37,266 nt of DNA, from NCBI GenBank assembly GCA_012270585.1, contig JAAXIB010000068.1, forward strand, positions 1-37,266, in the 5' to 3' direction. Under the pieces are notes generated by a model that saw only the letters and a list, made by a program, of their open reading frames with translations, was not told where the DNA came from and searched no databases. This DNA is from Nitrospirales bacterium (lineage in GTDB: Bacteria > Nitrospirota > Nitrospiria > Nitrospirales > UBA8639). Position 1 is the stretch's first letter. Each line of letters opens with the position of its first letter. This document shows positions 10,939-32,061 of the stretch, one piece after another. Position numbers and translations under genes: made by a program.

Positions 10939-11054
10939 CAGTCCACCTCGATCATCTTTAGGCTCTCAATGCCCTCATCACCGACTATCTTGACCGTGAG
11001 GCGTTTCAACTCGTCGCCGGGCGGGAGCCGCTCCCGCCCGGGCTTATTCGTCAT
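10938..11054 (-). pseudogene. 38-codon frame resembling the C-terminal tail of a DNA methylase
   Basis: Encodes MTNKPGRERL, then ELKRLTVKIVGDEGIESLK and a short acidic end. The strand-like tail resembles the last ~25 residues of some site-specific DNA methylases, from memory of the family and not from a search. It overlaps the upstream gene's stop by 11 nt and ends in TGATG with the TIR-like start. A 25-bp palindrome lies inside it. It may be a scar of a deleted gene that still couples translation, or chance. Confidence 0.35.
11017..11041. repeat. Perfect GC-rich palindrome, possible hairpin
   Basis: CCGGGCGGGAGC (11017-11028) and its exact reverse complement (11030-11041) are separated by a single base. 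It sits 2 nt past the stop of the acidic 80-aa gene. It could terminate or attenuate that transcript before the TIR-MNT-HepT genes, although no U-tract follows. It resembles the other GC-rich hairpins scattered in this window. Confidence 0.7.
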
Positions 11055-16978: not shown

Positions 16979-17221
16979 CTATTGGGTCCCGATGGGTCGA
17001 AGAGGGGGCAGCCAGGGCGGACATGCAGGTCCGCCCCTACAGGGCTCCTCAGGGGTCGAGCGCGATTCTTCGGCTTGTCGGTGGGCCCGGATCTTGGCTT
17101 CAATACCGATGTCTTCCGGGGCAATGGGAGAACCCACCACGCCGCAGCCCGCTGCAAACGAACACAACACCGTCAAAGCGAGGGTCCATCGAAGAGCAGG
17201 GCCTTGGAAATCGTGCAACAT
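16979..17221 (-). CDS. Small lipoprotein next to argH (LptM/YifL-like position and lipobox)
   Basis: About 80 aa. The ATG at 17221 lies 2 nt after the argH stop. A hydrophobic stretch (LTLALTVLCSF in outline) ends in a lipobox AAGC, and the mature start CGVVGSPIAPED recalls the C-G-x-x-G-P-x-x-P of LptM (YifL), a small lipoprotein that helps LPS-translocon assembly and often lies beside lysA/dap genes. The last ~25 codons run through a dispersed hairpin repeat (17015-17036) and are probably not conserved. Lipoprotein call is good; LptM identity is inference from context. Confidence 0.6.
   Translation of the reverse strand: MLHDFQGPALRWTLALTVLCSFAAGCGVVGSPIAPEDIGIEAKIRAHRQAEESRSTPEEPCRGGPACPPWLPPLRPIGTQ
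17015..17036. repeat. Dispersed GGGCGGAC hairpin repeat
   Basis: GGGCGGAC (17015-17022), a 6-nt loop, GTCCGCCC (17029-17036). The same 8-bp stem occurs at 32040-32061, so it is a dispersed repeat family. Here it falls inside the 3' end of the small lipoprotein frame. Confidence 0.75.
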
Positions 17222-19992: not shown

Positions 19993-21018
19993 CTAGGGCC
20001 GGCCGAGCCACTCCGTTAAGATCGCTTTTTGAACGTGAAGCCGGTTTTCCGCCTGCTGCAGGACCACGGATTGCGGACCGTCCAGGACCGCCGCGGTAAT
20101 TTCCTCGCCCCGGTGGGCCGGCAGGCAATGCAACGCGATCGCCGTGGGTTTGGCCCGGTGAAGCAGGCGTTCATTTAACTGGTAGGGAGCCAGGGCCTTC
20201 AAGCGTTCGATCTGTTCATACTCCTGTCCCATACTCGTCCAGACGTCCGTATAGAGGGCATCAGCGTTTTCCGCGGCGACGGCCGGGTCATGAACGATCT
20301 CGATGGTCGCGCCCGTGCGGCCGGCTTCCTCGCGGCTCCGTTCGAGGATGCCGGGATCGGGTTGGTATTGAGGCGGACATCCGATCGCGACGTGCATCCC
20401 CACTTTTGCCCCGGCTTCGATCAACGAATTCGCAACGTTGTTCCCATCCCCCACGTACGCGAGTTTGAGTCCTTCGAAAGCATCATCGGCGAACGACCCT
20501 TTGACTTCCATGAGAGTGAAAAGATCGGCCAGGGCCTGGCAGGGATGACACAGGTCCGTCAACCCGTTGATGACCGGAATGGTGGCATGGCGAGCCCATT
20601 CCTCCAGCTTGGCCTGCTCGAACGTGCGAATCACGAGCCCGTCGAGATACCGTGACAGCACCAGAGCGGTATCACCGAGACTTTCCCCACGGCTGAGCTG
20701 GATCGTATCCGACGGAAGGAACAAGGCCTGCCCGCCCAATTGATGCATGCCCGCTTCAAAGGAAACCCGCGTGCGGGTCGAGGGTTTCTCGAACAGCAGG
20801 CCCAGGGTCAATCCCGAAAGCCACTGAGAGGCTGGGCCGGGCCGGGGGGTGGCCTTGAGTTCACGGGCAATGCGGAACAGGCGAAAGATCTGGCTGCAGG
20901 AAACGTCGGAGATCGCCAGCAAGTCTTTCGTCCCGCCCGCCGGCGTCGCGGGCGGGACGGCACGCGGGCCGTCCCCTACAATGCCGGGGTCGGGAATGGA
21001 ATGTCCCAACAGGGTCAT
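19993..21018 (-). CDS. argF: Ornithine carbamoyltransferase with repeat-derived N-terminal extension
   Basis: A 341-aa enzyme making citrulline from ornithine and carbamoyl phosphate. Seen: the carbamoyl-phosphate motif STRTR (80-84), HPCQALADL, the ornithine-side [12 protein letters not shown], and HCLPAHRG near 297. Family members are about 305-310 aa and start near [10 protein letters not shown]; here ~30 extra residues precede it, and residues ~14-30 ([15 protein letters not shown]) are the translation of a double GC-rich hairpin (20932-20975). The real start could be a TTG codon within KDLLAIS, or the hairpin may be translated. The frame remains open. Gap of 40 nt from argD. Confidence 0.93.
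20932..20975. repeat. Double GC-rich hairpin repeat inside the argF 5' end
   Basis: First hairpin: CCCGCCCGC (20932-20940), loop, GCGGGCGGG (20948-20956). Second, sharing bases: GGGACGGC (20954-20961), loop, GCCGTCCC (20968-20975). It looks like the intergenic hairpin repeats elsewhere in the window, but lies within the annotated N-terminus of ArgF in frame. Confidence 0.75.
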
Positions 21019-31124: not shown

Positions 31125-32039
31125 ATGGAAAAAGACCTGAAAAGCATTCTGGGCAAATTGCAGTATACCGACGACGCCAAGGTGGTGGAACAGATCACCA
31201 ACCAGACCCGACAGGTCCAGGACCGCATGTCGGGGATCAAGCACAAGATCGTGGTGATGAGTGGCAAAGGTGGTGTCGGGAAGAGCATGACTACGGTCAA
31301 TTTGGCCTTGGCCTTGGGACGGCAAGGCCACAAGGTCGGGATTATCGACGTGGATCTCAACGGGCCCTGCGTTCCCCGCATGATGGGGATTCTGGGCAAG
31401 GGGCTTGAGGTCACGCCGGATGGGGCGCGACCGCCGGAAGGGCCTTATGGCATCAAAGTGGCCTCCATGGATTTCCTGCTCAATGAGACGGCTCCCGTCC
31501 GGTGGAAAGGGCCGATGGATTTGAGTCCCGTCTGGTTGGGGCTCATGGAAATGAACGTGATCCGGGAGTTCCTCGCCGATATTCTCTGGGGGGATCTGGA
31601 TTATTTGTTGGCCGATCTTCCCCCGGGCGCCGCAGCGGATAAACCTCCGGTCCTCGCCAGCTTCCTTCCGGATCTTGCGGGCGCGGTGGTGGTCACGACG
31701 CCTTCGGAAGTGGCCTCGAACGTGGTGCAGAAGTCGATCGGCTATGCCACGGAACTGGGGATCACCGTGTTGGGGGTCGTGGAAAACATGAGCCAATACC
31801 GGTGCCCGTCGTGTGGCACCGAGAATGAACTGTTCGAGGGCAACACCCAAGGCATGTGTGAGGCCCTCAATCTGCCGTTACTCGGCCGCATTCCATTTGA
31901 CCGGAACTTTGCCGGGACGTTTGATAAAGGGACCCCGTTGTTGGATGGAGAGTATCCCACGAACCGGCGCTATACGGATATTGCCGGGCGCATTCAGTCG
32001 ATGTTGGATTACAAGAAAGTTCTGGCCGAAAATTTGTAG
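31125..32039 (+). CDS. Mrp/NBP35-family iron-sulfur carrier ATPase
   Basis: About 304 aa. Seen: VMSGKGGVGKSMTTVNLA (deviant Walker A), IIDVDLNGPCVPRMM, YLLADLPPGAA (Walker B-like), and the bridging cluster motif CPSCG near residue 230 that holds a 4Fe-4S cluster between monomers. The family assembles or transfers Fe-S clusters. It lacks the N-terminal MIP18 domain of many Mrp proteins. ATG 31125 has GGGAGAA 7 nt upstream; ATG 31110 is an alternative five codons earlier. A hairpin repeat directly after the stop may terminate it, and the PCP_red protein gene follows on the same strand. Confidence 0.9.
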   Translation: MEKDLKSILGKLQYTDDAKVVEQITNQTRQVQDRMSGIKHKIVVMSGKGGVGKSMTTVNLALALGRQGHKVGIIDVDLNGPCVPRMMGILGKGLEVTPDGARPPEGPYGIKVASMDFLLNETAPVRWKGPMDLSPVWLGLMEMNVIREFLADILWGDLDYLLADLPPGAAADKPPVLASFLPDLAGAVVVTTPSEVASNVVQKSIGYATELGITVLGVVENMSQYRCPSCGTENELFEGNTQGMCEALNLPLLGRIPFDRNFAGTFDKGTPLLDGEYPTNRRYTDIAGRIQSMLDYKKVLAENL

Positions 32040-32061
32040 GGGCGGACCTGTGTGTCCGCCC
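32040..32061. repeat. Dispersed GGGCGGAC hairpin repeat after the Mrp gene
   Basis: GGGCGGAC (32040-32047), 6-nt loop, GTCCGCCC (32054-32061), immediately after the TAG stop. Same stem as 17015-17036. It may act as a terminator. Confidence 0.75.

Follow-up and report, generated by a model that had tools for sequence, protein, structure and literature searches.

In the reading that we consider very probable, ArgF of this Nitrospirales bacterium has an old N-terminal extension, and part of the linker within that extension would have been replaced, in frame, by a REP, a dispersed palindrome of the GTAG type that is probably translated as part of the enzyme. The window, by which we mean the whole stretch of DNA analyzed (37,266 nucleotides), belongs to a genome of 2.5 Mb in 89 contigs (G000). 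The features that matter here are as follows, with the basis of each in parentheses.

19993 to 21018, minus strand: argF, ornithine carbamoyltransferase, 341 amino acids, probable start ATG at 21018 (open reading frame [ORF] plus domain and equivalog models)
20980 to 21018, minus strand: codons 1 to 13, a conserved head that would predate the REP (comparison with relatives)
20954 to 20979, minus strand: GTAG-type REP GTAGGGGACGGCCCGCGTGCCGTCCC, codons 14 to 22 in frame, VGDGPRAVP (inverted repeat and genome pattern search)
20929 to 20953, minus strand: native rest of the Pro/Ala/Gly linker (PATPAGGT), kept in REP-less relatives (relatives' loci)
20929 to 20959, minus strand: second, composite hairpin in which native codons adjoin the 3'-terminal 6 bases of the REP (inverted repeat, folding)
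20920 to 20922, minus strand: TTG codon 33, rejected as an alternative start (genus comparison)
17015 to 17040, minus strand: GTAG-tagged hairpin GTAGGGGCGGACCTGCATGTCCGCCC, 183 bases past the end of argH (hairpin scan of the window)
32036 to 32061, plus strand: GTAG-tagged hairpin GTAGGGGCGGACCTGTGTGTCCGCCC (hairpin scan of the window)

The gene encodes an ornithine carbamoyltransferase (OTC). Its product contains both carbamoyltransferase domains of Pfam, PF02729 (residues 31 to 171) and PF00185, and scores 408 bits against the equivalog model NF001986 (cut-off, 306) and 384.5 bits against TIGR00658 (cut-off, 280.85). Counted from the ATG at 21018, about 30 residues precede KDLL; the REP accounts for residues 14 to 22 (about nine), while the 13 residues before and the 8 after are host sequence. 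Solved OTC chains align from about query residue 25 to 35 in 14 of the 15 listed and from residue 68 in the other one, and the extension therefore lies outside the known fold. In an AlphaFold2 model, pLDDT was below 50 for residues 1 to 28 and above 90 in most blocks of the core, which is weak evidence, since the other 26 rows of the alignment lack the ArgF tail and the low values may partly reflect that. The linker hit by the REP is variable and predicted to be disordered.

Two GC-rich inverted repeats precede KDLL, at 20954-20964/20965-20975 (10 of 11 positions matching) and at 20929-20940/20948-20959 (12 of 12). The first lies within 20954 to 20979, where GTAG immediately precedes a perfect stem of 8 bp and the whole spans 26 bp; this element is a GTAG-type REP, both by its tag and short palindrome and by its many copies. 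A search of the window for GGGACGGC-N(3-8)-GCCGTCCC gave one match, and 100 dinucleotide shuffles gave 0. The GTAG-tagged form, GTAGGGGACGGC-N(2-10)-GCCGTCCC, is found at 30 places in G000 (reversed-pattern control, 0); with up to two mismatches allowed, the number rises to 38, copies are present in 11 of the 14 genus genomes examined, and the controls remain at 0 throughout. The flanks of the G000 copies are unrelated to one another, and many copies extend as GTCCCGAATG. Within the window, three GTAG-tagged hairpins with 8-bp stems compare with 0.07 expected (order-1 Markov null, stems of at least 8 bp), and those at 17015 to 17040 and 32036 to 32061 are related in sequence to the argF REP. 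These counts bear out the likeness to repeats elsewhere that a preliminary description of this DNA had claimed. The loop of the argF copy measures 6 nt, versus the 2 to 5 nt of the short-hairpin search filter given in the available text of PMC6006769.

Five of the 30 copies in G000 lie wholly inside an ORF with a Pfam domain (ArgF and loci L038, L050, L051, and L059), 2 meet such an ORF at its 3' end, and 23 do neither, in a Pfam scan that covered 21 of the 31 ORFs of at least 80 amino acids overlapping a REP copy. Five of the six reading frames of the REP are free of stop codons, so in-frame landings are survivable. The copy in L050, a CCA-adding-enzyme-like ORF, was left out of the translated ones: MRERL, downstream of the REP, offers a plausible start, and for 7 of the 11 matching relatives the alignment begins no earlier than residue 34 (at 47 to 49 for 4 of these), past the REP. 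Two separate observations concern palindromes outside argF. Four REP copies of G000 (at L048, L049, L053, and L055, around base 1500) are embedded in one larger dispersed repeat, cttgagggggagtcg ... gcaggcgaaccggtgggggg, as a repeat within a repeat. The window also contains a perfect 12-bp inverted repeat at 11017 to 11041 (CCGGGCGGGAGC/GCTCCCGCCCGG), outside the listed ORFs of at least 120 amino acids, which is possibly a terminator.

The second hairpin is a by-product of the 3' end of the REP meeting Pro/Gly codons. Because its stem and that of the REP overlap in six bases (20954 to 20959), the two hairpins are mutually exclusive, and upon joint folding the second prevails and the REP hairpin is lost. 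Its right arm, GCGGGCGGGACG (12 bases), is identical in L004, a locus without a REP, and native argF codons make up this arm and half of the left one. The preliminary description had derived the N terminus of ArgF from a double-hairpin repeat. The hairpins are indeed GC rich and one of them is dispersed, but the overlap of the stems rules out a tandem double hairpin, only the first being a dispersed repeat, and no more than residues 14 to 22 come from it. A palindrome formed by chance from Gly, Pro, and Ala codons in a GC-rich gene is an adequate description of the second hairpin, given its native right arm. As an account of 20954 to 20979 it is refuted by the match to a GTAG-tagged dispersed family with 30 copies versus 0 in the control, and we give it practically no credence.

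Relatives with and without the repeat point to the ATG at 21018 as the start of ArgF and show that this upstream start is older than the REP. A matching ATG is present in 14 of 14 genus genomes. The 11 closest members (G000 included) all begin with MTLLG, 8 of them without a REP in the linker, and share the pattern MTLLGxSxxxxG (the head is also written MTLLGxSIPxPG) followed by a linker up to KDLL; the distance from ATG to KDLL is 23, 25, 26, 30, or 31 codons, always in whole codons. The check recommended in the preliminary description, a look at the ArgF start of hairpin-less relatives, therefore returned the same ATG and the same MTLLGxSIPxPG head. The other three members have the heads MAMLG, MAIPG, and MTMLG with 33, 53, and 25 codons, respectively, and MTILG heads occur at three loci (L013, L014, and L016) of another genus in the same family. 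In pairwise comparisons among all 11, codons 2 to 13 show a pS of 0.316 and a pN of 0.118, that is, a pN/pS of 0.37 (0.14 for 300 core codons); in the two alternative frames, the ratio for these bases is 1.01 and 1.81. This constraint is seen in frame only, and the head upstream of the REP is therefore translated and constrained. In G000, the frame is interrupted by a stop 2 codons ahead of the ATG.

Translation might conceivably begin at codon 33 instead, the TTG within KDLL, which the preliminary description had put forward as the possible true start; the REP would then be an RNA hairpin in the 5' leader. Such a start would fit the Pfam N-terminal domain, which begins at residue 31, and no clear Shine-Dalgarno sequence is seen within 20 bases before the ATG. 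Moreover, the available text of PMC3733652 (Di Nocera et al. 2013) cautions that many REPs at ORF N termini are probably untranslated. However, codon 33 is TTG in only 11 of the 14 genus members and is not a start codon in the other 3 (CTG in G006, TTA in G008, and CTG in G007), and a start there would deprive the conserved domain of K31 and D32 at its edge. The frame is also held in the linker across several length changes, the ATG is retained by all members, and the head before the REP is conserved as protein in the argF frame only. We reject the TTG on these grounds and regard a downstream start as very unlikely. The ATG, the constrained head, and the different codon in place of the TTG in three genomes together place the start at 21018.

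The linker has been a recurrent landing site among the relatives. High-copy repeats of three families occupy it in 5 of 14 genus genomes: the REP lies forward in G000 and G001 and reversed in G011, the linker of G007 has a single perfect copy of a palindrome counted 167 times across that genome (control, 0), and in the linker of G009 a repeat that this genome contains 93 times (control, 0) is present in three copies. In G004, G008, G013, and also G011, a REP abuts the ATG and adds an in-frame upstream ATG (MDGxGxVxx-MTLLG), and 6 of the 14 genomes have neither a linker repeat nor an ATG-abutting REP. The recurrence was noticed post hoc, and we attach no probability to it. A single inherited insertion common to G000 and G001 is unsupported by trees of the argF core, the argD side, and the argG side, in none of which the two genomes are paired, several branches of these trees being weakly supported; their forward copies would represent separate events or have been moved by local recombination. 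As a separate observation, the ATG-abutting REP at L003, L007, L008, and L009 puts an ATG 27 bases upstream and could add nine residues to ArgF.

As to what the insertion did, typical relatives without the REP read CCC-GGC-GTT-TCGGCGGCCCC-GCC at the site, versus CCC-GGC-ATT-REP-GCC in the window. The 26 bases of the REP stand in place of about 10 to 11, and the gene exceeds the commonest length by 15 bases (five codons). Since the REP-less relatives have 10 to 11 other bases at the site, this was a replacement rather than a clean insertion; no target-site duplication is visible at the argF REP. We envisage that ArgF of this genus would long have consisted of a conserved head, a variable Pro/Ala-rich linker, and then the catalytic core (KDLL...), and that its linker then received, with the frame kept, a GTAG-type REP, the kind of palindrome that REP-associated tyrosine transposases mobilize. 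It would thus be a selfish palindrome, in frame by chance, in a linker that may tolerate almost anything. The idea that a repeat inserted in frame and became part of the protein, already voiced in the preliminary description, gains support from the ancestral ATG, the constraint on the head, and the REP-less relatives.

Conceivably, the ATG is used but the REP has been retained for a reason, its mRNA hairpin or its peptide tuning the expression or activity of ArgF. The first ~110 bases fold at -57.8 kcal/mol in G000 and -53.7 kcal/mol in G011, and the nine remaining genes range from -32.0 to -42.3 kcal/mol, although one of these, G001 with -39.1 kcal/mol, also bears the REP. Folding of the 141-nt region is stronger than that of shuffled sequences (z, -2.81), and the return of repeats to the linker in 5 of 14 genomes could be taken in the same sense. 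In contrast, the site is occupied by three unrelated families in both orientations with different peptides, and 6 of 14 genomes do without a repeat in or beside the linker. In addition, the hairpin starts ~40 bases after the ATG and leaves start-codon folding unaltered (-9.9 in G000, within the range of the relatives). Folding of G000, G001, and G011 against the relatives gave no sign of a hairpin kept for regulation, and we consider retention for function unlikely. We infer that the nine residues supplied by the REP ride along in a disordered tail as a tolerated, near-neutral passenger, with no gain of function.

A candidate mobilizer is found in the relatives G013 and G011, which have Y1 transposase genes with the argF-type REP family beside or inside them, as in the REPtron/RAYT (TnpA-REP) systems described in the available text of PMC6006769 and PMC3733652. 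Among NCBIfam models, their proteins match NF047646 (REP-associated tyrosine transposase) best, with 63 and 61 bits (cut-off, 80), and G008 has a different transposase type that scores 188 bits against the same model. Unlike in the described systems, the G013 transposase ORF bears the REP inside its own reading frame, and in G000 only a fragment is present. No intact RAYT was seen in G000, and the Y1 transposase fragment, being below the Pfam cut-off, was rejected as one. Mobilization of the REP by such a transposase is what these associations suggest.

Other observations on transposases stand apart from the argF case. Among Nitrospirales RAYT ORFs, counted without duplicate loci and short REP-only matches, 16 of 20 of the MPNHxH type have an in-frame GTAG-tagged hairpin within 120 bases after the HUH motif (L161:1461-2073, L162, L163, L164, L171, L182, L184 to L188, L190, L191, L193, L194, and L196), versus 0 of 3 of the LPDH type. 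The expectation over all 23 ORFs is 0.007 (codon shuffles), the ORFs being related and thus not 20 independent cases. The stem sequences of these hairpins differ between species, and our literature searches found no report of an in-frame GTAG hairpin after the HUH motif. At L156:643-2129 of G009, an array of another GTAG hairpin family (GTAGGGCCGCATCTCATGCGGCCT and variants) flanks a Y1 transposase gene on both sides.

The REP also occurs in a second protein. A G000 ORF with sigma-70 region 1.2 (L051; C54:3-371) contains the REP at codon 37, with conserved stretches on either side; the frame is that of the argF copy and spells VGDGSRAVP. The best NCBIfam models for the sigma ORFs are RpoD, below cut-off on part-length proteins, and several sigma-70 paralogues exist; the identity is therefore left at RpoD-type. 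Orthologue loci were parsed from 11 of the 14 genomes (including L197, L199, L202, L204, and L205), with G003, G007, and G002 left out. The REP lies at the same place in G001 and G004 (VGDGxRAVP, in three genomes together with G000) and is absent from the orthologues of G010, G006, G005, and G012. In G011 a different sequence, which contains GAGCGAAGTCGAAGG (present at 4 of the 222 loci examined), splits the REP without loss of frame, in G008 the REP is decayed, G013 has a deletion at the site, and G009 is unaligned there.

Although REPs are usually defined as rarely overlapping coding regions (available text of PMC12306157), intragenic GTAG REPs and Rickettsia palindromic elements (RPEs) are already known, and, as far as the available text of these reports goes, the argF case belongs to that kind. 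Intragenic GTAG and CGTC repeats are described in PMC3733652, where it is suggested that flexible linkers can accommodate insertions. The argF REP resembles the GTAG REPs described there in having GTAG at one end, a 20- to 40-bp palindrome, and many dispersed copies, some of them in ORFs. It differs in that translation of N-terminal copies is undecided in that text, whereas here relatives with and without the REP share the upstream start. RPEs, of ~150 bp, lie in frame within functional genes (PMC10969869 and PMC3733652, available text). The argF REP works like an RPE and would likewise constitute an in-frame insertion into a functional protein-coding gene, but its length of 26 bp, its GTAG tag, and its different host set it apart, and on length we do not file it as one. 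The main text of PMC3733652 contains no match for "nitrosp," a search of the available text of PMC2817692 for internal copies gave no match, and our literature searches, in the text available to them, found no report of a REP in this ArgF. The present analysis contributes a comparison with empty sites by which the start codon is settled, along with the use of one site by several families and a second essential gene.

A broader notion, which we offer as rather doubtful, is that the GTAG REPs of this genus form a standing source of protein sequence. The VGDGPRAVP word would have spread to linkers of essential proteins (ArgF and the RpoD-type protein) and to a transposase. The clade of that transposase would keep a REP, in frame directly behind the HUH motif but of a sequence that varies between species, and so carry its own substrate within its reading frame, and host linkers like that of ArgF would be reused, perhaps functional, landing sites.

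In summary, a REP at the N terminus of an ORF is usually put down to a misplaced start, and for ArgF the relatives with and without the repeat settle this point. The case makes it testable how far bacterial linkers tolerate selfish palindromes and whether REPs add protein sequence.
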